37,738 bases of DNA, from NCBI GenBank assembly GCA_012798435.1, contig JAAZNF010000093.1, forward strand, positions 1 through 37,738. Direction: 5' to 3'. Of the stretch, positions 1 through 28,788 are shown one piece after another. Source of the stretch: Myxococcales bacterium. Lineage in GTDB: Bacteria; Myxococcota; B64-G9. Positions within the stretch are counted from its first letter, which is position 1. The number at the start of each line of letters is the position of its first letter. Below the pieces are notes generated by a model. It was not told where the DNA came from. It worked only from the letters and a program-made list of their open reading frames with translations, and ran no database searches. The translations under genes and the position numbers were made by a program.

Positions 1-294
1 GCGGTGGAGAACGGCGTCTGCATGCTGCGCCAGTTCCCCACCCGCAAGCACCACCGGGCCGTGACCTGCCCGCCCGACAGGTGCCAGCCGGTGTGTACCG
101 GGCGCCTGGGCGAGGACCTCTCCGACTACGCCCGCCCGGTGGCCGAACGTTGCATCCGGCAGTTCGTGTGGTGGGCCAACCCCTACGACATTCGCAATTG
201 CGAGGAGAACCTGCGCCGGATCGAGCCCCCCACCGACTTCCTGCTGGCCTACTGGATGGGGCGCTACTACGGCTTCATCCCCGAGGATCTGTAG
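1..294 (+). CDS. C-terminal part of an unknown protein, 5' end outside window
   Basis: The reading frame is open from the first base and ends at a TAG at 292-294, so this is the last ~97 residues of a gene that starts before the window. The visible part has several cysteines and an aromatic-rich tail (YWMGRYYGFIPEDL) that looks like a real protein end rather than random translation. Several Cys in the first 50 residues suggest an exported, disulfide-bonded protein; this is inference. I do not recognise the family. Its last 28 bases overlap the last bases of the convergent papain-family gene, so the two genes share their 3' ends. Confidence 0.6.
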   Translation, partial: AVENGVCMLRQFPTRKHHRAVTCPPDRCQPVCTGRLGEDLSDYARPVAERCIRQFVWWANPYDIRNCEENLRRIEPPTDFLLAYWMGRYYGFIPEDL

Positions 295-3200
295 CGCCGG
301 CACAGGCACAGGAGCAGCACGGCCCCGAGGAACAGGCTGCCGAGACCGCTCCCGCCGACGCTACCGCAACCGCAGCCCGAGCCCGTCTCTACGCCCGGCA
401 GGCACAACCCCTGGACGCAAGACCCGTCGTCACAATCCCCGTCACCGAGACATTGTTCGAGACAGGTCCTGTCCGTCTGCTCGGCTTCCCCGTCGCAGGA
501 CTGCTCGCCGCCACCGGGACAGGGGAAGCGGATGAAGCCATCGCAGGCCGAGTCGTCGTCCAGCCACACCGACTCGCACTGGTGATCCGCGTTGCAGCGG
601 GCATCGCGGCGGGAACCCTGGCAGCGGCCCGGATCGTGGCACACCGGATCGGCCTGGTACTGCGCCGGGCAGTCCTCGGCAACAGAGCAACAGTCCGCGC
701 CCCGGGGGCAACACCACCCACCGCTACAGACTCCGCTCAGGCACTCGCGCTCGGATGAACAGATGTCTCCGTCCGGCTTGCGCTCACGACACTCGCCCGA
801 CGATGTCTCGCAGAAGCCTCTCGGATCGCACTCGTTGTCATTCAAACAAGAACTGGCGCAGGCGTGCTCGTCCGCGCAGGCGTAGGGTTGGCAACTCGAC
901 AGGCCGAACGGCAAGCAGGTCCCCGCTCCATCGCACTCGGCGCCGCCGTAGAGCACGCCCTCCAGGCACAGCGGCTTCTCGCACGGCGTGCCGGCCGGGT
1001 GGAAGGTAAGCGCGCACAACCCGGTGCCATCGCACTCGGCGGCAGAGAGGCACGGCCCGGCGTTGCACGAGTACGAGATGCCCCGGCAGATCCCACCCTG
1101 GCAGATGTCCTTGAAGGTGCAGTTGTCACCGTCGTCGCAGCCGTTGCCGTCCGCCGGGCTCCAGGCCTGTGCGGCCTGATCCGGCCGGCAGACCAGGCAC
1201 GGGTCGGTCGGGTGCGGCGCGCCCCAGAGGTGACAGACCCCGTCGATGAGACAGTATCCCTCTAGCAGACGGTGCGTGCACTCGATCGGATCCCCGTCCC
1301 GGCAGCCATCCTCGGTACACTCCAGAAGGTCGTCACACTCCTTGGGCGGATCGCCACGGCAGGCGCCGCTCCGGCAGGAGTCCTCGCGGGTGCAAGAGAG
1401 CCCGTCGTCGCAGGGCGCTCCCTCGTCGCTGCTCCAATGGAACGGCTCGAGCCAGGGCAGGCACCGCAGACAGATGTTGCCCGGGTTCGGCTCTCCCTCC
1501 AGCCAGCAGGCACCGTCGATGGCGCAGGTTCCGGGTTCGGTCTTGCGGATGCACACCGGCCCGGCGTCGGCGTATCGCAGCGACAACCCGTCGGACAAGT
1601 GGCCCTCGCACGACCAGGACAGGGCGTTCCAGGGATCGTCGCCGGTCAGCCCCACCGTCGCCGAGCGGCCGGCGTCGCCAGCGAGTCGCAGGTAGCGATA
1701 ATCGAGCCCGCCGCCCTCGCGCAAGATGGCCTCGAAGTCCAGCCACGCGGTCGGGTTATCCAGGGGCCGCGCCCGGTGCCACTGAACGACGAGGCGGCGC
1801 GTGGGGGCCGCACCTTCCCGCGCCACCAGCACCCGGCAGCCTTCCTCGGCGGCGCAGAAGAGGTCGTCCCAGTACACCGCCAACAGGCGAACAGGTGATG
1901 CCTCGTTGGGTAGGCACAGGTTCTTAGGGCCAGGCTCCACACCATCCGCGGTGATGGCTCCGTTGACGCTGACGAAGACGCGCTGAACCGGCTCGCTCGA
2001 TAGCGGGAAGACCCACTCGAACCCGATCTCGACGGGCCCGATGGTGATGTCGTCGCCGAAGAGCCCGATGTCCACCCCCTGGCGGGAGATGTCCTCGAAC
2101 GGTTCGTCGCATGGCTCGATGCGAACCGGGTAGTCGTCGCAGTCGTCGCGGGTGCAGTCGAGCCCGTCGATGCACTCGGGCGGGAGCGTGCCCAGGCACT
2201 CGCCGAGGACGCAGCGGTCGGCGCCGTTGCACTGGCGCTTGTCGTCGCACGGCGTGTCGTCGGGCAGCGGGGCGTGGGAGCACCAACCGGAGCGGCAGGC
2301 GTCTTCGGTACACTGCAGCCAGTCGTCCTGGCAGAGGGTGCCGTCGGGTAGCGGCGGATGGATGCAAGCGCCCGAGCGGCACTCGTCGGTGGTGCACTCG
2401 CTACCATCGTCGTCGCAGGCCTCGCCATCGGGGAGAAGGAAGTAACAGCTCCCGTCGCGGCAGGCGTCGTCGCTGCAAGGATTGCCGTCGTCGGGGCAGG
2501 CGATGGCGTTGTTGAAGTCGTGCTGGCAGACGCCGCCGGGGCAGGTGTCGTCGGTGCAGAAGTTGCCGTCGTCGCAGGGGCTCGAGCACACGCTCACCCA
2601 CACCCATCCCTCGCTCGAAGCCGGCGGATCCCAGCGATCGGTCGCAGTGAAGCGCACCCGGTACATCCCCTCCGAGCCCGCCGGCGGCGTCCACACGAAC
2701 TCGCCGCTGTCGCCGTCAAAGGCGGCGCCGATGAGCTCCGGCGGCGCCTCCATGCCATAGCGCACCCCGTCGCCATCCGGGTCGCGCGCCACGACGGAGA
2801 AGCGCAGCTCCTCGCCGGCGCGGGTGGTGCGGGTGTAGAGGGGGTCGAACACCGGCGCGCGGTTGAGCTGGATACCGTACACGCTCCCGCCGCTGCCGAT
2901 GTCGTTGTAGCGGATGCGGAAGAACCCCAGCTCGCCCCAGCCCGGTCCCCAGCTATTCTTGCAGATCCAGGCCTGATCCGCGTCGTCATAGCCGACCAGC
3001 TCCACCAGGTGGTAGCCGGTCGGCTCGCCGCTGACGTGTTCGTACACCCCGCCCTGGTACCAGTAGAAGTCCTCGTACACGGTGAAACCGAAGGTGAGCG
3101 GGGCCTGCTGGAGCGCGGCCTGGAGGCTTGATACGTCGCTCCCGGCGTAGAAGAAACCATGGATGGGGATGGCCCGGGTGGCCCAGTCGCTGCACTTCTG

Positions 3201-3869
3201 GGCGCAGGGCAGATCCTGGGCCGCGTACGGAAAGCACGCCTCGTCCACGATGCCGGTCTTCTGCATGAAGGCGAGCGCGCCCTCGACGAACCCGCCCTGG
3301 CAACCTCCCGCCTCGCTGCACGAGACCACGTCCTGCTCGGAGCGGTCGAAGTCCACCCCCGGGGTGCCGGCCTGGATGAGGTACGCCGACTCGAACACCG
3401 CGGTGGCGCCGAAGGCCCAGCAGCTCCCGCACCCGCCCTGGTCGCGGACCGGCGTCACGAAGTCCCCGCCGTTCTGGCGCCAGTCGAGGGCGGCCGGGAG
3501 TCTCAGCCCCTTGGGCGACGTGAAGCGCGGCACACCCGGCGGGACAGGGCCGGGCGCGGCGCCGAGGCGGCGGCGCTTCTCCTCGAGCGAGAGCCCGGAC
3601 ATCGAGGTGGGCCCGGCTTTCCAGCGAGCGCCGGCCCGCCGGATGGCGCTCTGCACGTCGTCAAGCTCGTCCGCGCCGGCCGGCACCGAAAGCAGCAACA
3701 AGCCACTCAGGAACACGAACATTCGGCCGCGGCTTTGGGCCGCCCGAAAAGCGCGCGACGGCCCGCTCGGGCAGCCGGGCCCTCGCGCTCGTTCGCACTG
3801 TCGATCGCCGTTCGCTGGCGTGCGGTTCTGTCGCTCCATGGATCTACCCCTGCTCCCGCTCATACTCAT
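267..3869 (-). CDS. Secreted papain-family (C1A) cysteine protease with Cys-rich stalk and MYXO-CTERM tail
   Basis: A 1200-residue secreted peptidase. The papain signature is complete: Gln144, Cys150 in GCGSCWAF, His287 in GYHLVELVGYDD and Asn305 in CKNSWGPGWGELGFF. After the protease (about 125-335) comes an Ig-like domain (about 336-427), a first Cys-rich block (428-579), a beta-rich domain (about 580-780), a second long Cys-rich block, and a C-terminal GSGCGCG motif followed by a hydrophobic helix and arginines. That tail is the MYXO-CTERM sorting signal, known for surface anchoring in myxobacteria. The hydrophobic signal segment (MFVFLSGLLLLSVPAGA) begins only at residue 50. The start at 3869 has AGGAG nine bases upstream; 3839 also has a fair Shine-Dalgarno (AGGGG), while 3722, right at the signal peptide, has none. 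The start is 28 bases after the FTR gene, so co-transcription with it is likely. Confidence 0.9.
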   Translation of the reverse strand: MSMSGSRGRSMERQNRTPANGDRQCERARGPGCPSGPSRAFRAAQSRGRMFVFLSGLLLLSVPAGADELDDVQSAIRRAGARWKAGPTSMSGLSLEEKRRRLGAAPGPVPPGVPRFTSPKGLRLPAALDWRQNGGDFVTPVRDQGGCGSCWAFGATAVFESAYLIQAGTPGVDFDRSEQDVVSCSEAGGCQGGFVEGALAFMQKTGIVDEACFPYAAQDLPCAQKCSDWATRAIPIHGFFYAGSDVSSLQAALQQAPLTFGFTVYEDFYWYQGGVYEHVSGEPTGYHLVELVGYDDADQAWICKNSWGPGWGELGFFRIRYNDIGSGGSVYGIQLNRAPVFDPLYTRTTRAGEELRFSVVARDPDGDGVRYGMEAPPELIGAAFDGDSGEFVWTPPAGSEGMYRVRFTATDRWDPPASSEGWVWVSVCSSPCDDGNFCTDDTCPGGVCQHDFNNAIACPDDGNPCSDDACRDGSCYFLLPDGEACDDDGSECTTDECRSGACIHPPLPDGTLCQDDWLQCTEDACRSGWCSHAPLPDDTPCDDKRQCNGADRCVLGECLGTLPPECIDGLDCTRDDCDDYPVRIEPCDEPFEDISRQGVDIGLFGDDITIGPVEIGFEWVFPLSSEPVQRVFVSVNGAITADGVEPGPKNLCLPNEASPVRLLAVYWDDLFCAAEEGCRVLVAREGAAPTRRLVVQWHRARPLDNPTAWLDFEAILREGGGLDYRYLRLAGDAGRSATVGLTGDDPWNALSWSCEGHLSDGLSLRYADAGPVCIRKTEPGTCAIDGACWLEGEPNPGNICLRCLPWLEPFHWSSDEGAPCDDGLSCTREDSCRSGACRGDPPKECDDLLECTEDGCRDGDPIECTHRLLEGYCLIDGVCHLWGAPHPTDPCLVCRPDQAAQAWSPADGNGCDDGDNCTFKDICQGGICRGISYSCNAGPCLSAAECDGTGLCALTFHPAGTPCEKPLCLEGVLYGGAECDGAGTCLPFGLSSCQPYACADEHACASSCLNDNECDPRGFCETSSGECRERKPDGDICSSERECLSGVCSGGWCCPRGADCCSVAEDCPAQYQADPVCHDPGRCQGSRRDARCNADHQCESVWLDDDSACDGFIRFPCPGGGEQSCDGEAEQTDRTCLEQCLGDGDCDDGSCVQGLCLPGVETGSGCGCGSVGGSGLGSLFLGAVLLLCLCRRYRSSGMKP
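2133..2588 (-). repeat. First Cys-rich repeat block in the papain-family protease
   Basis: Residues 428-579 are a run of short modules of the pattern C-D-D-G-x-x-C-x-x-D-x-C-x-x-G-x-C, repeated about six times with uneven spacing. The same pattern recurs in a second block nearer the C-terminus and in the gingipain-type protease at 8848-13530. The modules are probably small disulfide-bonded units that form a rigid stalk (inference). Confidence 0.7.
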
Positions 3870-8847: not shown

Positions 8848-11800
8848 ATGAGAACGCGATGGACCATGATCTCGATGTGCATGATGGCCGCGCTCTGGCT
8901 CACCGCCCTGCCCGTCCGGGCCGGCGACTTCGAACTCCGGCTTGCGGTGCCGAAGCCCGAGGTCACCCTGGACGAGCGCGGGTATGCCCACGTCCACATC
9001 CGCGGGTTCCTCAACCTCGGTCATGCGGGGGAGCCCGAGCTCCCGGTGGCTTCGTTGCAGGCGCTCATCCCGTCGGGCGAGCGGGTGGAATCGGTGACCT
9101 TGCTCCCGGCCGAACCCGTCGAGATCCCGGGTACGCATGCGGTGTACCCCAAGCAGGTACCCTGGCCACTCTCCAAGGGCGCGCCGCCTTTCACGCCGCC
9201 GGATGCGCGCATCTATGCCGCCGCGGCCACCTTTCCGCAGCGCCTGTTCTCCGCCGAGCCGGTGCAGTTCTTGCGCGGCTTCGCCATCCAACCCGTGACC
9301 CTGCGCCCGGTGGTCTACAACCCGGCCGCCAAGAAGCTCTACTACTTCCCGTCGCTGGCGGTGAGGGTGCGGACCGCGCCCGACCCCAAGAACGCGCTCC
9401 TTTCGGACCTGTACCGGGGCTTCGGGCGCGATTTCGAGGCCGTGCGGGCGCAGGTGCAAAACCCCGAGGCGCTCTCGAGCTACCCCGCTCGCGCCGAGGA
9501 TAGCAAGCTCGATTACCGCTACGTGGTCGTCACCAGCCAGGCGCTGGCGAGCTGCCCGGGGGCGAACAACCTCCAGGCGCTGCTAACCGAAAAGCAAGGT
9601 CGCGGCATCACTACCTTCATCAAGACCATGGAGGAGATCCGCACCGGCTACAGCGGCGCGGACGACGCCGCCAAGGTGCGGGCCTTCCTGCTGGACATGT
9701 ATCAGAACGCCGGGGCCGACTTCGCGCTCCTGGCCGGAGACGCCGACCTGCAAAACGTCGGCGGCGAGACCCAGGCCCCCATCGTGCCCGTGCGCGGGCT
9801 GTGCTGCTACCTGGACAGCTACACCGGCGACACCAACATCCCCTCGGATCTCTACTACGCAGCGCTGGACGGCACCTTCAACGACGACGGCGACGGCTGC
9901 TGGGGCGAGCAGACCGACGGGACCGATCTTCTGGCCGAGCTGTGGGTGGGCCGCGTGCCGGCGGACAACTGCACCGAGATCGCCAACTTCGTGCAGAAGA
10001 CGCTCAACTACCGCGCCGCCAGCGGCGACTGGCTGCGCAAGACCTACATGGTCGGCGAGTGGCTGTGGGACTACTACCCGGGCAACAACTTCGGCTACGA
10101 CTTCCTCAAGGACGTCCACTATTCCTCGACCACCGACGGCTACGACACCAAGGGCTTCTCCGAAAGCACCTTCTACCAGGTCACGGTGATGGACGATCAG
10201 TTCGAGGACGGGCCCAACTGCTCGGGCCAGCCCAGCCCGTGCTGGTCGGCCCAGGAGATGCTGGCGGTGCTGAACGGCGGCAACCACATCATCAACCACC
10301 TGGGGCATTCCTACACCGACTACAACATGCGCCTGTACTGCAACGACCTGGCCTCCCTCACCAACACCCTGCCCTTCTTCGAGTACTCCCAGGGCTGCTA
10401 CCCCGGCGCCTTCGACAACCGCGACGACCAGGGCGGCGTGATGAGCCAGGACTCGTTCTCGGAGTACATGGTGCTGGGCACGCGCGGGGCGTTCGCGGCC
10501 ATGCTCAACACCCGCTACGGCCTGGGCTGGTACTCGAACTACGAGCATCGCTACTTCTGGGACGCGGCCTTCCGGGAGAACAAGGCCCAGATCGGCGAGA
10601 TGCACGCCTACTCGCAGGCCAAGATGAGCCCGGTGATCTGGACCGACACCGGGGTACAATGGGTGTACTACGTGGCCAACATCTTCGGTGATCCCGAGGT
10701 CACCATCCACGGCATCCTGCCGCTCCAGGGCCCGTTCCTCAACTTCCAGAGCCGGGAGATCACCTCGGACGGCACCACCCCGGCCGTGCCCGGCCCCGGC
10801 CGGCACATCGTCATGCCCATCACCCTGAGAAACATCGGCACCGCGAACGCCACCGGCATCGTGGCCACGCTCACCACCTCGAGCCCCCAGGCCACCATCA
10901 CCCAGGCGAACCCGACCTTCGCCACCATCGCGGCCGGCGCCAGCGGGCGCTCCACCACCCACGCCGCCTTCGACATCTCGAACGCGGCGGCCGACGGCGC
11001 CGTGCTCGACTTCTCGCTGGCCTGGACCGCGGCGGGCGGGTACTCCGGCACGGTGCGCTTCTCGGTGAGCGTCCAGCGGGCGCGCATCGTCTACCTGGCC
11101 CACACCGTGGACGACTCGGCCGGCGGTTGCGACACCGACGGGGTGGCCGACGCCGGCGAGCCGGCGGTGTTCGCCGTCACCCTCCAGAACCAGGGCAGCG
11201 CCGCGGCCAGCAACGTGGTGGCGAACCTCACCGCCTCGAACTGCAGCATCACCGGGCCGGCCAACGTCGGCGCCATCCCCGCCGGCGGCACCGCCCAGGC
11301 GAGCTTCACCGTGACTCCCGGCGGGAGCATCGCCTGTCCCGCGCTCGCCTGGCCCTTCTCGCTCAGCATCCAGGCTGCGGAGCTTCCCCAACCGGACACA
11401 TCAAGTTTCGCCACGGACCTCAACGCCGACATCCAGCAGTCGCTCTTTGGGGACGACATGGAGGGCAGCACGCCGAACGGCTGGACGCACTCGGCCTCCA
11501 TCGGAGCCGACGACTGGGCCAAGGCGAACACCTCCTATCACTCGCCCAGCCGCGCCTGGTTCTGCTCGGATCCGGGCACCAAGTCGGAGAAGTTCCTGAT
11601 GACCCCGGCCTTCTCCATCGGCGGCAACACCCAAATGTCCTTCTGGCACCGCATGGAGAGCGAGGCCAACTACGACGGCGGGGTACTGGAGATCTCCGTC
11701 AACGGCGGTGCCTTCCAGGATCTCGGCTCGGTCATCACCCAGGGCGGCTACAACGACACCGTCGATCCGTCTACGGATTCCACCCTGGTCGGCCGTCCGG

Positions 11801-13530
11801 TCTGGGCCGGCACCGTCGCCTGGCAAGAGGTGCGGGCCGACCTCTCTTCCTTCGGCCCGGCCAGCGTGGTCATCCGCTTCCGCTTCGCCAGTGACTCCTA
11901 CGTGGCTGGCAGTGGCTGGTGGATCGACGACTTCTCCATCGACACCCGGAGCGCCAGCTGCCAGCAGCAGAGCTGCAACCAGGCGCCGGTGGTGAACGCC
12001 GGTGCGGATCAAAACGTCCAGAGCGGCACGCAAGTCCGCCTCTCGGGCAACGCCAGCGATCCCGGTGGCCTGCCGCTCACCATCACCTGGAGCCAGACCG
12101 CCGGCCCCGTGGTCACCCTGAGCGACACGCACTCGCTGAGCCCGACTTTCACCGCGCCAGCGGTGAGCAATTCCGCGACGCTCACCTTCCTTCTTACCGC
12201 CAGCAACGGCCAGACCCAGGCCAGCGACAGCGTGAATGTCACCGTGTGGAACTGCAGCGACAACGAGCCGTGCACCAACGACAGCTTCACCGGCAGCGGT
12301 TGCAATCACGCGCCGCTCGCCGACTGCACCGCCTGCGGCGCGGGCGGCGCCTGCATGAGCGGCGTCTGCCAGGCCAGCGGCCCGGTAGTGTGCGACGACG
12401 GCAACGCCTGCACCCGCAGCGACACCTGCCAGAACGGCCAGTGCGTCGGCGCCGAGCCGGTGGCGTGTCAGCCGCTAGACGCCTGCCACGACGCGGGCAC
12501 CTGCGATCCGTCGAACGGCGCCTGCTCCAACCCGCCCAAACCCAACGGGAGCCCCTGCGATGACGGCAACGCCTGCTCCGTGAATGACGCTTGCCGCTCC
12601 GGCGTGTGCGTCCCTGGAGAGCCGGTCACCTGTCCGGCGGCCGACGATTGCCACCAGAACGGCAGCTGCGACCCCCAGACCGGCCAGTGCTCGAACCCCG
12701 AGAAGCCCAACGGCACGCCGTGCGATGATCACAGCGTGTGCACCGAGAATGACGAGTGCCGCTCCGGGGTTTGCACCGGCGGCAGCACCGTGACTTGCAC
12801 TCCGCCCGATGCTTGCCATGGCGCGGTGTGCAATCCGCAGAGCGGCGGCTGCGAGTTCCCGCTGCTCGACGACGGCACCCCGTGCGACGACGGCGATGCT
12901 TGCACTCAGAACGACGCATGCCAGGCCGGCGCCTGTACGTCGGGAGCGCAGAAGGTATGCGAGGCGCAGGATTCCTGCCACGAGGCCGGCACCTGCGACC
13001 CGCAGACCGGCGAGTGCTCGAATCCTGTCAAGGCCGACGGCGCCGAGTGTGACGACGGCGACGGCTGCACCCAGGGCGACACCTGCCGGGCCGGCGCCTG
13101 CACCGCCGGCGAGCCGGTGACCTGCCAGGCGCAGGATGCCTGCCACGAGGCCGGGAACTGCGACCCGCTGACCGGGTCCTGCTCGAACCCGGCCAAGGCC
13201 GACGGCAGCGCCTGCGACGACGGCGACGCCTGCACCCGGACCGACGCCTGCCAGGCCGGCGTGTGCACCGGCGCCGATCCCGTGACCTGCCAGCCGCCCG
13301 ACGAATGCCACCAGGCCGCCTGCAACAGCGGAAGCGGCGCGTGCGACGTCACCACCAAAGCCGACGGGACCGCCTGCAGCCGGGGGACGTGCCAGAACGG
13401 CGTGTGCACCGAGGAGTCTTCGTCAGGGTCGGGCTGCGGCTGCGCCACCGGCGCCTCCTCTCCCGCCGGGGTTTGGCTGCTTCTCCTGCCGCTGTTCTCG
13501 CTGCGCCGGCGCCGCGCCGCGGGCCGCTAG
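8848..13530 (+). CDS. Gingipain-type (C25) cysteine protease with CBM-like, Ig-like and Cys-rich repeats and MYXO-CTERM tail
   Basis: A 1560-residue exported protease with a signal peptide (cleavage near AGD, residues 25-27). The C25 peptidase domain follows an N-terminal propeptide-like region (about 28-215). Catalytic candidates are His487 in INHLGHS and Cys517 in YSQGCYPGAF; the SDLYYAALDGTFNDDGDG segment typical of the family is at about 333-350. After it come two Ig-like/CARDB-like domains (about 640-860), a MAM/CBM-like beta sandwich ending at WWIDDFSI (about 868-1032), a PKD/cadherin-like domain (about 1040-1130), six Cys-rich repeats (1182-1510) and a MYXO-CTERM tail (GSGCGC, then hydrophobic, then RRRR). 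The AAAGGAG ribosome site is six to seven bases from the ATG. Role: a surface-anchored or released endopeptidase, with substrate unknown. Confidence 0.92.
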   Translation: MRTRWTMISMCMMAALWLTALPVRAGDFELRLAVPKPEVTLDERGYAHVHIRGFLNLGHAGEPELPVASLQALIPSGERVESVTLLPAEPVEIPGTHAVYPKQVPWPLSKGAPPFTPPDARIYAAAATFPQRLFSAEPVQFLRGFAIQPVTLRPVVYNPAAKKLYYFPSLAVRVRTAPDPKNALLSDLYRGFGRDFEAVRAQVQNPEALSSYPARAEDSKLDYRYVVVTSQALASCPGANNLQALLTEKQGRGITTFIKTMEEIRTGYSGADDAAKVRAFLLDMYQNAGADFALLAGDADLQNVGGETQAPIVPVRGLCCYLDSYTGDTNIPSDLYYAALDGTFNDDGDGCWGEQTDGTDLLAELWVGRVPADNCTEIANFVQKTLNYRAASGDWLRKTYMVGEWLWDYYPGNNFGYDFLKDVHYSSTTDGYDTKGFSESTFYQVTVMDDQFEDGPNCSGQPSPCWSAQEMLAVLNGGNHIINHLGHSYTDYNMRLYCNDLASLTNTLPFFEYSQGCYPGAFDNRDDQGGVMSQDSFSEYMVLGTRGAFAAMLNTRYGLGWYSNYEHRYFWDAAFRENKAQIGEMHAYSQAKMSPVIWTDTGVQWVYYVANIFGDPEVTIHGILPLQGPFLNFQSREITSDGTTPAVPGPGRHIVMPITLRNIGTANATGIVATLTTSSPQATITQANPTFATIAAGASGRSTTHAAFDISNAAADGAVLDFSLAWTAAGGYSGTVRFSVSVQRARIVYLAHTVDDSAGGCDTDGVADAGEPAVFAVTLQNQGSAAASNVVANLTASNCSITGPANVGAIPAGGTAQASFTVTPGGSIACPALAWPFSLSIQAAELPQPDTSSFATDLNADIQQSLFGDDMEGSTPNGWTHSASIGADDWAKANTSYHSPSRAWFCSDPGTKSEKFLMTPAFSIGGNTQMSFWHRMESEANYDGGVLEISVNGGAFQDLGSVITQGGYNDTVDPSTDSTLVGRPVWAGTVAWQEVRADLSSFGPASVVIRFRFASDSYVAGSGWWIDDFSIDTRSASCQQQSCNQAPVVNAGADQNVQSGTQVRLSGNASDPGGLPLTITWSQTAGPVVTLSDTHSLSPTFTAPAVSNSATLTFLLTASNGQTQASDSVNVTVWNCSDNEPCTNDSFTGSGCNHAPLADCTACGAGGACMSGVCQASGPVVCDDGNACTRSDTCQNGQCVGAEPVACQPLDACHDAGTCDPSNGACSNPPKPNGSPCDDGNACSVNDACRSGVCVPGEPVTCPAADDCHQNGSCDPQTGQCSNPEKPNGTPCDDHSVCTENDECRSGVCTGGSTVTCTPPDACHGAVCNPQSGGCEFPLLDDGTPCDDGDACTQNDACQAGACTSGAQKVCEAQDSCHEAGTCDPQTGECSNPVKADGAECDDGDGCTQGDTCRAGACTAGEPVTCQAQDACHEAGNCDPLTGSCSNPAKADGSACDDGDACTRTDACQAGVCTGADPVTCQPPDECHQAACNSGSGACDVTTKADGTACSRGTCQNGVCTEESSSGSGCGCATGASSPAGVWLLLLPLFSLRRRRAAGR
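12391..13377 (+). repeat. Six tandem Cys-rich repeats (54-55 residues, 162-165 bp)
   Basis: Units begin at 12391, 12556, 12721, 12883, 13048 and 13213, giving steps of 165, 165, 162, 165 and 165 bases. Each encodes CDDG.AC...D.C..G.C followed by a P-V-x-C...D-x-CH...G-x-CDP...G-x-CSNP..-x-(D/N)G segment. The last unit ends near 13377. DNA identity is only moderate, so these are old duplications kept by selection on the protein. Confidence 0.85.
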
Positions 13531-16804: not shown

Positions 16805-17227
16805 TCACGTGGGACGGGCATTGGGGCGCGGCAGGCGCGCGCGCCACACCAGACCGAAGATGGCCACAAAGGCCGAAAGCAACTCGACGGGTGCCAGCGT
16901 GAGAGCCACCAGCTCGGCCGCGGCGGGCAGAGAAAAGATGCTGTTCAGCCACAGGGTCGCGGCCGCGAAGGCGATCCCCAGGCCGGCCCCGATCCACAAG
17001 AGCGCCGCGGCGAAGCGCCGGGTCATCCGCCCCCGGCAGGCCTTGACGATGCCCCCGATGGCCAACACCAGGAGCGCAAGAAAACAGATGATGCCCAAGG
17101 GCCAGACGATGAGCAGAAACCCGAGCCCGCCGAGGTTGTCCGCGCGGGCCGGACCCGAAAGCAGGGTCAGCGCAACAAGCGTCGCCGCCTGGAGGGATCT
17201 TCCCTGGGCATCTAGTTGCATCATCAT
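16805..17227 (-). CDS. Small membrane protein, four hydrophobic segments
   Basis: A 140-residue protein if it starts at the first of three consecutive ATG codons (17227, 17224, 17221); a longer frame reaches 17251. The first hydrophobic segment is followed by ARADN and looks like a cleavable signal peptide. Three more segments follow: GFLLIVWPLGIICFLALLVL, a second around LLWIGAGLGIAFAAATL and a third near the end. Only a weak GGTGG ribosome site is present. The function is unknown. It lies upstream of, and on the same strand as, the four-module lipoprotein. Confidence 0.6.
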   Translation of the reverse strand: MMMQLDAQGRSLQAATLVALTLLSGPARADNLGGLGFLLIVWPLGIICFLALLVLAIGGIVKACRGRMTRRFAAALLWIGAGLGIAFAAATLWLNSIFSLPAAAELVALTLAPVELLSAFVAIFGLVWRARLPRPNARPT

Positions 17228-17584
17228 GACGTACCACCGGCCCGCACCCATATCAAGCCCTGGACCTGCCGTAATGAAACCAGCGTGTCCATTCCCTCGG
17301 TACCGGGCCTTCCGGCTTTCTTGTTTGCATCCTTCTTTCTTTCGCCCTCTCCCCTTACTAGTAGCGTTTTTTTCAGGTGTTTTTTCTCAGCCTCCACTCG
17401 GTCCATGCAGTCAAGGGCTCTTTTCATAGCCTCCCGTTGTCAGCAGGTTTTTCTGGTTTATCCCAAGGGTTCCATGGGGCAGAGGCCCCTCGCGAAGTCC
17501 AGCGCCTTTTTGGGAGGGTGGCAAAAACACGCCTGTTCAGGCACAGTGCGACGGGGTACAGTTGCGTTGTCCGGGAGGTTTTCG
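17228..17584. other. 357-base divergent intergenic region
   Basis: The region separates the minus-strand membrane protein from the plus-strand glycosidase-like gene. It is T-rich on the plus strand (several T5-T7 runs between about 17330 and 17520), unlike its GC-rich surroundings, and has a short palindrome GCCTGTTCAGGC just before 17550. The glycosidase gene has GGGAGG six bases before its ATG. No promoter pair was convincing and no gene or RNA was recognised. Confidence 0.5.
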
Positions 17585-19975
17585 ATGGGATCGCCCGACA
17601 CGACCTGGAGGCGCTGGCTAGCCGTTCTGTCGCTCGCGGCCGCCGGCCGAAGCTTCCTCGCCTGCGCCGACTCCGGCTCCGAGCCGCCCGAGCCGTACCT
17701 CTGGCCCCGGCCAGAGGTGCCGGCGCTCGAGGGACCGATCTTCGACGAACTCGCGTATCTTGGCGACGTGAGTTCGTGGACCGCGAGCGGGTGCGGCGTG
17801 GGACAGCCGCGCGACGCCGGGCACATGGGGGACTTCGGCGTCGGGAACGGGCATGTGTTCGCCCTCTCCGGCTACGCCTGCCCGCTGAACACGCTGCACA
17901 CCATGGCCGGGCCGGACTACCAGCAGGAGGCGGCGTTCTACCCAGACACCTGGTTCGAGGTGCTGGCGGACGATCGGCCGCTCGAGATCGCGCGCGGGTT
18001 CGTCTTTCGCCCCCGGCGGACGGCCGTGCTCATCAGCAGCGAGGAGGCCGGCGACCTCCGCTGGCACGCCGTCACGTTCGCGCCACCCGGCGGCGGGCCC
18101 ACACAGCGCGCCCTGGTGCGCCTGGTCGAGATCCACAACCGCGCCAAGCAGCCTAGCCCCAGCTTGAGCCTGGTGACCCATGAGGGAAACGCCAGCCGGG
18201 AAGGCCGCCTGCGTCGGCTGGCCTGCCTTGCGCCGGCCAACAGCCCGGACCCGTCCCGGGTGACCCTCGGCCCGCTCGGCGCGGGAGAGTGGAAGCGCCT
18301 CGTCTTCGCCTATCTCACCGGCCGCGACGAGGCCGAGTGCCAGGAGACGCTGCTCGCACTCCAGGGGACGGACCCGGCGACCCTCCTCGGCGCCACCCGC
18401 GATGACTGGGAGCGGTTCTTCGACGGCGCGCCGCGCCTCGAGTCGCCGGACGTGCGAGTGAACGACCTCTTCGAGGGTGTGCTGGCCACGGTGCGCGCGC
18501 AGCAGACCCACCTCGGCGGGATCTCGCCCATGAGCCGCTACAGCCTGATGTGGATTCGGGACACCGCCGGCACGGTGCGCCTGCTCGCCCGGGCGGGCCT
18601 CTACGATGACGCACGTGCCCTGATCGACTACTACCACCGCGCGGCCGCCGCCCGCGGCGACGTGAACAACGCGGTGGACCTGGACGTGCCGGCCGAGCCG
18701 CCGCCGCCCGAGCCCGACTGGGACGCGCTGGGGCCTTTCTCCGGTCGCCAGGCCGCCGAGGGCCCCTCGTACATTCCCCTGATGGCGCACTGGTACGCCC
18801 GGGCCGCCGGCGACGCCGAGACGCTCGTGCGCCTGTATCCCATGCTGCGCCGGTGCCTGCTTTCGCAGACGCTGGACGAGCACGACCTGCTCACCTTCTC
18901 CGGGGACGAAACCTACCGGGCGGCCATGTCGCTTGCGCTGGGGCTGCCCATCGAGCACGACTACCCTGGCTGCTGCCGCTCGGCCAACTCCTCGTTCTTG
19001 TTCGTGGCCGCGGCCGAGGCGCTGGCCGGGTACTCCCGCGCCGCAGGCCGGCCCGAGGACGAGGCGCTGTTGCTCGCTCTCGCCGCACGGGTGCGCCAGG
19101 CCGCCGACGCGACGTACCGTCGGCCCGACGGCACCTTCGCCCCGTTCGTCGATCTCGGCCGGCCAGAATACCTGCCGCCCTGCTACGAGGACGTCTCCAC
19201 CCAGCCATTGTGGACGGGCTATCACTCCGCGAGCGAAGCGGCGGCCCGAGAGAACCTCGACGGCTGCGTCCGCTTGCTCGACAACGGCAATGGTTTTCTG
19301 CAATCGCCGCTGCACCCCGATTACCAGGGGTATATGGGCCTCGACATCCGATTGGGCGTCCACACCGGCATGACGCCAGGGTACTACCTCTACAACCTGG
19401 CGGCGACGGACCACCCCCAGTTGGAGGCGGCCTTCAACGCCCTGGGCACGGCGGCCTCGCCCTCGGGCAACTACTCGGAGTACCATATCTACGACGACCA
19501 CTCGGTGCTGCAGCCGATCTACGATGCAAGCGGCTCGCTCGGGGATCTCACCGCGCGCTACCGCCACTGGGAGGGTGCCATCGACATGGACGCGCTCCTG
19601 TTTGCGCTCACCGGCCTCGATTGTGACGGCGGCACGCCCGAGGCGTCGCTTGCGCCGCGGCTCGTCAACGACTGGCCCCGCATGCGCTGGCGCAACCTGC
19701 GCTGTGGGAACATCCGCTTCGAGCTGCTGGTCGAGGAGCTGGGCGGGCGGCGCAGGGTCACCGTGAGCCCGAGTCAGGGCGATCTCTCGGTCCGACTCGC
19801 GGTGCCACTCCCCGCCGCTTCGATCCGCTCCGTATCCCTCAACGGAAAGCGCTTGCAAGAGACCGACTATCGCATCCTGTCCTGGTTCGGCCTGCCGCGG
19901 GTCGAACTCTTGGCCACCATGGACTCGGTCGAGCAGCCCATGGTCGTCGAGGTCGATTACCGCCGGACCCATTGA
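17585..19975 (+). CDS. Exported (alpha/alpha)6-barrel glycosidase-like protein, probable lipoprotein
   Basis: A 796-residue exported protein. The N-terminus is a signal peptide with Cys27 in FLAC, a weak lipobox. An N-terminal beta-sandwich-like region (about 60-270) contains GNGHVFALSGYACPLNTLHT. From about 300 on, helical repeats with YSLMWIRDTAGTVRLLARAG, ARALIDYYHRAAAARGD, SYIPLMAHWYARAAGD and MTPGYYLYNLA resemble six-hairpin glycosidases of the GH15/GH65/GH63 type. A C-terminal beta-domain (about 690-796) has the VSLNGKRLQ strand seen after such barrels. The probable job is trimming of an external glycan; the substrate and acid/base residues are not identified. The start at 17585 is set by the ribosome site GGGAGG; the frame is open far upstream but that part is not protein-like. 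Confidence 0.8.
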   Translation: MGSPDTTWRRWLAVLSLAAAGRSFLACADSGSEPPEPYLWPRPEVPALEGPIFDELAYLGDVSSWTASGCGVGQPRDAGHMGDFGVGNGHVFALSGYACPLNTLHTMAGPDYQQEAAFYPDTWFEVLADDRPLEIARGFVFRPRRTAVLISSEEAGDLRWHAVTFAPPGGGPTQRALVRLVEIHNRAKQPSPSLSLVTHEGNASREGRLRRLACLAPANSPDPSRVTLGPLGAGEWKRLVFAYLTGRDEAECQETLLALQGTDPATLLGATRDDWERFFDGAPRLESPDVRVNDLFEGVLATVRAQQTHLGGISPMSRYSLMWIRDTAGTVRLLARAGLYDDARALIDYYHRAAAARGDVNNAVDLDVPAEPPPPEPDWDALGPFSGRQAAEGPSYIPLMAHWYARAAGDAETLVRLYPMLRRCLLSQTLDEHDLLTFSGDETYRAAMSLALGLPIEHDYPGCCRSANSSFLFVAAAEALAGYSRAAGRPEDEALLLALAARVRQAADATYRRPDGTFAPFVDLGRPEYLPPCYEDVSTQPLWTGYHSASEAAARENLDGCVRLLDNGNGFLQSPLHPDYQGYMGLDIRLGVHTGMTPGYYLYNLAATDHPQLEAAFNALGTAASPSGNYSEYHIYDDHSVLQPIYDASGSLGDLTARYRHWEGAIDMDALLFALTGLDCDGGTPEASLAPRLVNDWPRMRWRNLRCGNIRFELLVEELGGRRRVTVSPSQGDLSVRLAVPLPAASIRSVSLNGKRLQETDYRILSWFGLPRVELLATMDSVEQPMVVEVDYRRTH

Positions 19976-19995
19976 GAACGCTCGAGACCGCCCCC

Positions 19996-20724
19996 TCAGA
20001 ATACCGACAGCCGGTAGATGGTCACCCAAGTCACCAGTTCTCCGGTGTCGCTCCTGCCACCACTCATCCTTCCATTGCTGCTTCCGGTGAAGAGACGGAG
20101 CGACACGCTGTCGCCGGGTACGAGCACGATCTCACCGGAACCCGAAAGACTCATCTCCATGGAACCCGCGTGCAGACGGGCCAGGCGCCGTTCAGAGACT
20201 CCGTTCTTGTACAGGATCAAGGACCAAGGATTCCAGTCCGCGGAGCCCGAAAACGACACATTGGTCGAGATCCGGTAGAGCCCTCCCCCGCCTTCGGGAA
20301 CCGTGAATCTCCAGTTCGAGCCAGGAGTTACCGCCGCTTCCGTGTCCTGCTCGCAGACGTCGAAGTTGACGGTCCAGAACCGCGTGTTGATCGTCGTGGA
20401 ATCGGCCGAGACATGACACGAGACGAAGATCGGCGCCGGTGGTTCGCTCCCGGGCCCCGGAGGGCCAGGAGGCCCGGCGGGGCCTTCGATACCCTGAGGC
20501 CCTTGCACTCCCTGGGGCCCCGGCGGCCCCTGGATGCCTTGAGGACCCTGCGGCCCAGGCGGGCCCTGGGGTCCCTGGGGTCCCTGCGGTCCCGCCGGTC
20601 CCGGTATCCCCTGTTCGCCCCGTTCTCCCTGCGGTCCTGGCAGGCCCTGGGAGCCGGTGTTCTCCGAACAGCAGGAAAGGGCCAAACCCACCGTGAGCGT
20701 CAACGAGATCATCGCATGGTTCAT
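19996..20724 (-). CDS. Collagen-like lipoprotein with C-terminal C1q/TNF-like jelly-roll domain
   Basis: A 242-residue protein. The signal peptide ends in LALSCC, so it is probably lipidated at Cys18 or Cys19. A collagen region of 23 Gly-X-Y triplets follows (24-92), with many GPQ, GPP and GPA triplets. The C-terminal part (about 100-242) reads as a jelly roll of the C1q/TNF type ([19 protein letters not shown], then [13 protein letters not shown], then SLILYKNG, then [11 protein letters not shown], then a terminal [11 protein letters not shown] strand). Bacterial collagen-like proteins often trimerise through such heads and stand out from the cell surface. GGAGG lies five bases before the ATG at 20724. 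Its stop lies 20 bases from the stop of the convergent glycosidase gene. No ligand can be inferred. Confidence 0.9.
20449..20655 (-). repeat. 23 collagen Gly-X-Y triplets
   Basis: A 207-base stretch encodes 23 uninterrupted Gly-X-Y triplets. It is low-complexity and C/G-rich, with the codons for Pro and Gln repeated, so the copy number could change by slippage between strains. Confidence 0.85.
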
Positions 20725-20871
20725 GCAAACCTCCACAAGCTTCTCGTGCGGGCGAGTGGACCGGGCGTGCTGAATGGATACGGAAAAAAATAGATACTTT
20801 TCGCTTCCGGGATCCGAACCTCGCGCCATCTGCAAGGAAACCGCCGGACAAGCCCGTCCCCGGGGGCGCCC

Positions 20872-21660
20872 TTAGCCGTGCACGTGGCGTCCGATGCGCC
20901 GGATGCGCTCGTCCTCTTGCGGGGTCAACGGGCCGGCGGGAAGGGCGGCCAGCGCCTCCTCTAGCTGGGAGCCATCGCGCGGCCCGCACAGGCACACGTT
21001 GAAGTTGGGGTTCGAAAGCACGAAGCGATAGCAGTCCCTCGCCCGCAGCGGAGGCTCGCCAGGCGGCATCTTCGCGGCCTTCAGCAGCTTGCCCCAGGCG
21101 GTGGCCGTGTAGCACACCAACCCCGGCCGACCCTCCCTGGGAAGGTGCGGAAAGATGTCCGTCTCCGCACCTGGATGGGCGGCGTTATAGCGGATGTGCA
21201 GGACCGAAAGGCGCGGGTCCGCCGCGTAGCCCACGAAACTCGGCCGGCGATGCCCCGAGACCGCTAGGTAGCGGACCATTCCCTGGTCGCGCAATTTCAG
21301 GGCGCGCTCCATGATCCGTTCGCCCGGCAGGTGGTTGTACCAGCCCAGCAAGAGCACATCGGCGTGGTCGAGGCCAAGCTCCGTCAATCCCCGGCGCAGC
21401 CCGCGCTCCAGGTACCAGGGCCAGCGGGAGTAGCTCTGGAGAACGACCACCAGTTGCTCGCGCTTGCCCATGCCGACCAGCTCCCGGATGGCCTGCGTCA
21501 TCCCGGCCCGCCGCGGCGTGCTGTGATAGAAGTAGTTCACCCCGCGATCGAAAGCAGACAGCAATGAGCGTGCATCCACACCGTATCCCCCCGCCACTCC
21601 GAGGGGAGAGACCTGGAGGCCCGTGCGGCCGAGGAGGACACGATCGGGAAATGGAGCCAT
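20872..21660 (-). CDS. Aldo/keto reductase-like protein
   Basis: A 262-residue protein with an aldo/keto reductase-type TIM barrel. The start RTGLQVSPLGVAGGYG, the FDRGVNYFYHS segment, LDHADVLLLGWYNHLP, and the end LSNPNFNVCLCGPRDGSQLEEAL follow the family order. The catalytic Lys normally found in the TK motif is replaced in VVVLQSYSR, while the Tyr (NYFYHS) and His (YNHLP) can be placed. It may be a diverged subgroup with altered chemistry or no reductase activity. A purine-rich site (GGAAGGGAA) lies just upstream. The gene lies 70 bases downstream of the beta-propeller gene and is read in the same direction. Confidence 0.8.
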   Translation of the reverse strand: MAPFPDRVLLGRTGLQVSPLGVAGGYGVDARSLLSAFDRGVNYFYHSTPRRAGMTQAIRELVGMGKREQLVVVLQSYSRWPWYLERGLRRGLTELGLDHADVLLLGWYNHLPGERIMERALKLRDQGMVRYLAVSGHRRPSFVGYAADPRLSVLHIRYNAAHPGAETDIFPHLPREGRPGLVCYTATAWGKLLKAAKMPPGEPPLRARDCYRFVLSNPNFNVCLCGPRDGSQLEEALAALPAGPLTPQEDERIRRIGRHVHG

Positions 21661-27612: not shown

Positions 27613-28788
27613 TCAGCGCACCTGCCGGCCGTCCTTCCACACGCCGGGAACCTTCTTGCCGTCGGGCTGGATGAAGACGCCCTTGCCGTTCGGCTGGTCG
27701 TTTTCGAACCGGCCCTCGTAACACGAACCGTCCGCAAGACACCACCGGCCCTGGCCGTGCTTCTTGTCGTCCTTCCACTCGCCCGTGTACCGCTCGCCCT
27801 TGGCGCTCGACGACAGCGTCCCCTGACCGTTCCGGCGGTCGCTCTTCCACTGGCCCTCGTACTTCCAGCCGTCCGGCCACACCATGGTCCCGGCACCATC
27901 GCGCACATCGTTCTGCCAGGTGCCATCGCAGCGCGAACCGTCGGGCCAGGTGAAGACCCCCAGCCCGTGTTTCTTGTCGGCCTTCCAGTGTCCGGTGAAG
28001 CGTTTTCCGTCGGGCCAACTCATCGTCCCCTGCCCGCTGGCCTTGCCGTCCTCGACCTCGCCCTGGTAGGAGCGGCCGTCCTTCCAGGTCATGCTCCCCC
28101 GCCCGGTACGCTTGCCCGCCCGGAACGACCCCTGGTAGCGTGCGCCGCTCGGCCAGCTCATCTCGCCTTCACCGTCGGGCTTTCCATGCGCAAAGGCGCC
28201 CTGGTAGCGCCGCCCGTCCGGCCAGGTCAGCACGCCCTGCCCCTCGCGCTGGTCGTCGCGGAAGCCGCCCTCGTAGCGCCGTCCGTCGGGCAGGGTGTAC
28301 GTCCCGCGACCCTCCATTTTGCCCTTCACGAAGTCGCCCTCGTAGCGCCGGCCGTCCTTCCAGGTGAGTACGCCCCGGCCGTGCATGAGGTCGTCCTTCC
28401 ACTCGCCCTCATAGACTCGCCCGTCCGCTCCGGTGTGGCGGCCGCGGCCGTTGCGCTGGTTGTTGCGCCACTCGCCCTGGTAGCGGCTCCCGTCCTTGCG
28501 CTCGAAGGTCCCCTCGCCCTCGAAGCGCACCTCGACGAAATCGCCGTTGTAGCGCGAGCCGTCCTTCCAGGTGTACGTCCCGCGGCCGCTGATCACGCCT
28601 TTGACGAACTCGCCCTCGTAGGTGTCGCCCTGCGCGTTCGAGGCCTTGCCCCGGCCGTGGGCCAGGCCGTCCTGGCAGCCGCCGCCCAAAAACGTCCAGG
28701 ACGCTCCCTGGGTGGCCAGCACGCGGCACTCCTCGGCCCAGGCGCCCGCGCAAAAAGCGATGATGGAAATGACCAGGATGCCTCTCAC
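27613..28788 (-). CDS. Exported MORN-repeat protein, 14 full repeats
   Basis: A 391-residue protein with a signal peptide (MRGILVISIIAFCAGAWA, cleaved near AWAEE). Residues 54-376 are 14 MORN repeats of 23 residues (one of 24), each with a G-x-x-Y-x-G-x-(F/W) start and an (H/N/E)G-x-G-x-(hydrophobic)-x-W-x-D end; a further partial unit closes the protein. MORN repeats form elongated beta-sheets and can bind lipids or proteins; in an exported protein they may contact the envelope (inference). GGAGGAGG lies just upstream of the ATG. The gene is the first of the MORN-FkbM-YhhN operon. Confidence 0.92.
   Translation of the reverse strand: MRGILVISIIAFCAGAWAEECRVLATQGASWTFLGGGCQDGLAHGRGKASNAQGDTYEGEFVKGVISGRGTYTWKDGSRYNGDFVEVRFEGEGTFERKDGSRYQGEWRNNQRNGRGRHTGADGRVYEGEWKDDLMHGRGVLTWKDGRRYEGDFVKGKMEGRGTYTLPDGRRYEGGFRDDQREGQGVLTWPDGRRYQGAFAHGKPDGEGEMSWPSGARYQGSFRAGKRTGRGSMTWKDGRSYQGEVEDGKASGQGTMSWPDGKRFTGHWKADKKHGLGVFTWPDGSRCDGTWQNDVRDGAGTMVWPDGWKYEGQWKSDRRNGQGTLSSSAKGERYTGEWKDDKKHGQGRWCLADGSCYEGRFENDQPNGKGVFIQPDGKKVPGVWKDGRQVR
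27661..28629 (-). repeat. MORN repeat array, 69-base units
   Basis: Fourteen consecutive units of 69 bases (one of 72) encode the MORN motifs of the exported protein. The units share GC-rich codons but are clearly diverged, so this is an old array rather than a recent expansion. Confidence 0.85.

Follow-up and report, generated by a model that had tools for sequence, protein, structure and literature searches.

A putative lipid-anchored collagen-like fibre with a phage-type C1q/TNF tip in a Myxococcales bacterium

Introduction

Proteins in which a collagen-like stalk precedes a C1q/TNF-type head have been described from several sources. BclA, F-BclA and L-BclA, the collagen-like glycoproteins of Bacillus spores, share this arrangement, and the collagen stalk of F-BclA ends in a presumed adhesive tip, solved as a trimer of TNF-like domains (PMC11952670). 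C1q tips and collagen-like shafts have likewise been catalogued, in 2026, among the fibres of contractile injection systems (PMC12923769). In Bdellovibrio, the tips of the mosaic adhesive trimer (MAT) fibres are TNF-like domains, one of which was found bound to GlcNAc (PMC10769870).

Here, we analyse a gene of a Myxococcales bacterium whose product combines a lipobox motif, a collagen stalk and a C1q/TNF-type head (Table 1). We consider it probable that this product is a lipid-tethered, self-assembling surface fibre with a trimeric adhesive C1q/TNF tip of the phage type; that no close orthologue of the protein is known counts against this reading.

Results

The gene and its lipoprotein signal

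The window, by which we mean the whole 37.7 kb stretch of DNA analysed, contains a minus-strand ORF that runs from an ATG at 20724 to a stop codon ending at 19996; both coordinates are exact. Third-position G+C over the whole gene is 0.737, above that of positions 1 and 2, and reaches 0.757 in the part encoding the head, which is lower than in the neighbouring genes (0.83-0.90). The two ORFs that overlap it in other frames fall short of the high third-position G+C typical of these neighbours (0.63 for 19972-20793, plus strand, and 0.57 for 20192-21115, minus strand). A sigma-70-type promoter or terminator pattern was looked for and none was found.

Table 1. Features of the collagen-head gene and its product
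Feature	Coordinates	Strand	Basis
Complete gene, 242 aa	19996..20724	-	Signal peptide, collagen stalk and C1q/TNF-like head; GGAGG (ribosome site) 5 nt before ATG
Predicted signal peptide with lipobox, residues 1-18	20671..20724	-	PROSITE-style pattern ending at residue 18; hydrophobic h-region
Collagen-like stalk, 23 Gly-X-Y triplets, residues 24-92	20449..20655	-	Pfam PF01391, E 1.1e-14
C-terminal head, predicted C1q/TNF-type jelly roll, residues 93-242	19999..20448	-	AF2, Foldseek, profile, PHROG

The protein begins with a hydrophobic segment (mean hydropathy up to 2.05) and, as in bacterial lipoproteins, a lipobox cysteine follows it: the lipobox-like sequence ...GLALSC ends at Cys18, the predicted site of lipidation, which is itself followed by Cys19. 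The n-region, MNHAMISL, is neutral and lacks the Lys or Arg expected of a lipoprotein, and export and lipidation are less certain for this reason. Judged from the sequence, the lipoprotein assignment is thus reasonable but not clean, and the lipid anchor proposed in a preliminary description of this DNA is made plausible by the lipobox pattern and the h-region, though not by the n-region.

The collagen stalk and its counterparts in the Myxococcota

The 23 Gly-X-Y triplets noticed in the preliminary description were confirmed as unbroken, a length well above chance: in 5000 shuffled sequences of identical composition, no run exceeded seven. Eight of the triplets are GPQ and four GPP, proline occupying the X position in 15/23 and glutamine the Y position in 12/23, and the stalk scores 54.3 bits with the Pfam Collagen family (cut-off 27.2 bits), which places it among collagen-like proteins. 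A collagen triple helix rises by about 0.29 nm per residue, and a triple helix of 69 residues would measure about 20 nm.

Collagen repeats were found in 172/193 of the Myxococcota genomes sampled. From the best matches we drew 98 distinct collagen ORFs, and 43 of them, the window protein counted, have a lipobox cysteine at most 12 residues before the stalk; this fraction is not a census because the ORFs were picked by their collagen score. Their tips are diverse, and Pfam confirmed MtrC/OmcA-type multihaem cytochromes and laminin-G domains among them. A search for collagen proteins with a C1q/TNF head in the phylum had been suggested in the preliminary description; stalks are common, but such a head, as detected with the A1 profile (see below), was found only in the window protein among the 98 ORFs. 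Six myxococcal collagens with short beta heads (L068, L069, L074, L091, L108 and L138) showed no significant relation to the head studied here.

The survey also brought up several proteins that deserve mention on their own account. In outer-membrane multihaem cytochromes of the MtrC/OmcA type (L084 and L096, confirmed by Pfam, and L082 and L088, similar in look), the lipobox cysteine is immediately followed by a collagen stalk of 17-20 triplets, which might keep the electron-transfer domain at a distance from the membrane. Four small proteins, one of them from the same genome as the window (C102:106148-106276), have a perfect (Ser-His-Gly)n repeat at their C-terminus, SHCSHGSHG...GSHGSW; they share an N-terminus with a KLTRRDLL-like sequence, come from four or more genera of the family and seem to be a family of repeat peptides rather than collagens. 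C1q domains scoring above the Pfam cut-off occur in 8/193 Myxococcota genomes; the proteins that carry them have apparent signal peptides but lack collagen. An apparently secreted C1q-domain family without collagen (L053-L060 and L066), with conserved cysteines and the motif GGGTFxAPCxGLY, is found in several large-genome Myxococcota, and one member (L056) has an extra C-terminal domain that is fibrinogen-like in look.

These data bear on whether the protein stays attached to the membrane. It could be freed by signal peptidase I, or by inefficient processing, and act as a secreted or periplasmic collagen-C1q protein, a soluble multivalent lectin in the manner of animal C1q or cerebellin; the neutral n-region and the tandem Cys-Cys do make the lipobox atypical, and other Myxococcota have secreted C1q-domain proteins with neither collagen nor lipobox. 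We nevertheless find a soluble protein unlikely: the lipobox pattern is present and Cys18 sits five residues ahead of the stalk, within the spacing (12 residues at most) common to 42 other Myxococcota collagen ORFs.

The head has a predicted C1q/TNF-type fold

An AlphaFold2 model of the head built from an eight-row alignment (pLDDT 77.7, pTM 0.75) has ten strands and no helix, with low confidence around residues 124-129 of the modelled head. When this model was compared with the PDB by Foldseek, the first match was the central spike of phage phi812 (E 8.6e-8); the C1q domain of caprin-2 (TMq 0.72, TMt 0.80, 2.7 A) was also retrieved, with C1QTNF5, C1QL3, C1q, TWEAK and the F-BclA tip (9h38) among further matches. 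Against viral models (BFVD), phage tail fibres came out on top, together with phage proteins annotated as "C1q domain", and several matches bear the name "Collagen triple helix repeat". A control model of the head alone, without relatives, was poor (pLDDT 56), yet its matches again included receptor-binding proteins of phages and structures of the C1q/TNF type, so that the C1q/TNF assignment does not depend on the phage rows of the alignment.

A profile made of the head and four phage or prophage relatives (A1) matched C1q/TNF proteins only among PDB sequences: the NC1 domain of collagen X (E 4.5e-5), that of collagen VIII (0.0099) and, weakly, CD40 ligand (about 0.09). At the family level, the head gave no match to Pfam C1q (PF00386, cut-off 23.7 bits), and hhalign related it weakly to the myxococcal Pfam-C1q proteins (prob 46%). 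A Pfam C1q scan of the bacterium's own genome gave no match either. Profile and models, the latter made with and without relatives, thus bear out the jelly-roll head first suspected from the sequence, and support an all-beta C1q/TNF-type domain of about 150 residues.

Phage tail proteins stand closest to the head

The best direct profile matches of the head are phage families: PHROG 22682 (tail fibre, 5.7e-7), 746 (minor tail, 6.4e-5) and 25122 (1.5e-4). Among 195 genomes of the phylum, its best relative (E 1.2e-10, 32% identity) is encoded in a prophage of Anaeromyxobacter oryzisoli, surrounded by genes that read as phage structural, and itself scores only 14.3 bits with Pfam C1q against the cut-off of 23.7. 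Two more relatives in the phylum are tail-like proteins; two phage records also match the head, and a phage "caprin-2 domain protein" is among the phage matches. By these comparisons, the head is most closely related to the tail tips of phages and not to animal C1q. No relative was found in the viral contigs scanned with the head or with two of its relatives, and a plasmid search gave no match. A match in a Sphingobacteriales MAG falls on the strand opposite an ATP-synthase-beta-like ORF and was attributed to chance; weak A1 matches in four myxococcal genomes had an alternate-frame or low-complexity appearance and were set aside.

Could the gene then be a stray phage tail-fibre gene, left by a prophage, rather than one for a cellular surface protein? 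The head has its nearest relatives exclusively among the tail proteins of phages and prophages, phage proteins also pair collagen with C1q-like heads (by name), and the head has the reduced third-position G+C noted above. However, nothing recognised as a phage gene lies in the 37.7 kb window, which holds C1 and C25 peptidases, a beta-helix protein, an aldo/keto reductase, an ADP-ribosylglycohydrolase, methyltransferases and QueC, with a ribosomal RNA operon at its right end, and which is ordinary chromosome; moreover, the gene has its own start and encodes its own lipobox-bearing signal peptide, for which a tail fibre has no use. We consider a prophage remnant quite unlikely. Within the same window, the large papain-family (C1) and gingipain-like (C25) peptidases (267-3869, minus strand, and 8848-13530, plus strand) have Ig/PKD domains, and a protein of 391 aa (27613-28788, minus strand) has 13 MORN repeats.

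The gene converges on a glycosidase-like gene (17216-19975, plus strand), from which a role in glycan recognition had been proposed. That the two form a pair for glycan capture and degradation is highly improbable: they are adjacent, both encode predicted lipoproteins, and C1q/TNF heads can bind sugar (PMC10769870), but being convergent they are not co-transcribed, the glycosidase-like gene is kept in 7/9 genomes of the family without the collagen protein, which is absent from the eight others (1/9), none of the flanking genes tested alongside is shared, and the glycosidase label is itself weak (Pfam MGH1-like, E 0.089, below the cut-off, and no PDB sequence match). The inference from adjacency therefore fails and, given its absence from the eight other genomes, nothing links the collagen-head gene to a pathway.

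Discussion

The architecture studied here is not unique: the association of collagen with a C1q/TNF head is already known in bacteria (BclA and F-BclA) and in phages, BclA-type spore proteins and phage fibres combining both. What looks new is the Gram-negative, lipid-anchored form; neither this form nor a phage-type tip on such a protein was found described in the open-access literature and collections searched.

The protein differs from each known system in its own way. BclA, F-BclA and L-BclA belong to Bacillus and are anchored by an exosporium or pilus leader instead of a lipid; reading the N-terminus of the window protein, we find a signal peptide with lipobox where BclA has the exosporium leader, its head is unmatched by BclA-C (PF18573), Pfam giving collagen alone, and the sequence match to BclA (1wck) spans residues 31-108, essentially the collagen part. 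The C1q-like tips of phages (PHROG 22682, 746 and 25122, the caprin-2-domain proteins and the receptor-binding protein of lactococcal phage 1358) are the closest relatives in sequence and fold, but they are virion parts without signal peptide, whereas the present gene is chromosomal, encodes a lipobox and lies outside any recognised prophage. Animal C1q, collagens VIII and X, C1QTNF proteins and caprin-2 have in common with it the collagen and gC1q layout, the fold and a profile-level similarity, while its head falls below the Pfam threshold and is closer to phage proteins in sequence, and the protein is lipid-anchored by prediction. The likeness to the animal C1q layout drawn in the preliminary description needs amending as regards the nearest relatives of the head. 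The Bdellovibrio MAT fibres resemble it as bacterial surface fibres with a trimeric TNF-like binding tip, but they are large (about 1000 aa) and collagen is unmentioned in their description (PMC10769870). Finally, NCBIfam models of the Lcl (Legionella) and Scl1/Scl2 (Streptococcus) adhesins match the collagen stalk, but this is essentially the sole match, far below the equivalog cut-offs, and these adhesins have other anchors and heads.

A mechanism may be suggested for the surface fibre. Three chains would be exported, each lipidated at Cys18; the C1q/TNF-type heads would drive trimerisation and so nucleate the collagen triple helix, and a trimeric binding tip would be projected from the outer face of the outer membrane. 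A trimeric rod is likely because homologous proteins with collagen and C1q domains are known as trimers. The fibre may then act as an adhesin or lectin whose target is another cell, a surface or a polymer. Its tip falls in the branch of the C1q/TNF superfamily that tailed phages use for the tips of tail fibres and receptor-binding proteins. It was probably taken from such a phage-type source and joined to a collagen scaffold with a lipid anchor, a kind of scaffold that is common in Myxococcota.

It is tempting to go one step further and to imagine a modular surface system of the Myxococcota, in which lipid-anchored collagen stalks carry exchangeable tips (phage-type C1q/TNF domains, MtrC/OmcA-type multihaem cytochromes, laminin-G domains and further beta domains), phage receptor-binding domains being recruited for the recognition of prey, kin or surfaces. 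We offer this as a tentative idea, possible rather than probable.

Our survey points to the collagen stalk with a lipid anchor as a scaffold widely used in the Myxococcota; no paper on it was found in the open-access literature searched. If the fibre proposed here is real, the BclA-like display of a C1q/TNF head on collagen would reach beyond Gram-positive spores and occur, with a lipid anchor, in a Gram-negative phylum that counts predators among its members, and a fibre of cells would be seen to have its tip in common with the receptor-binding proteins of phages.
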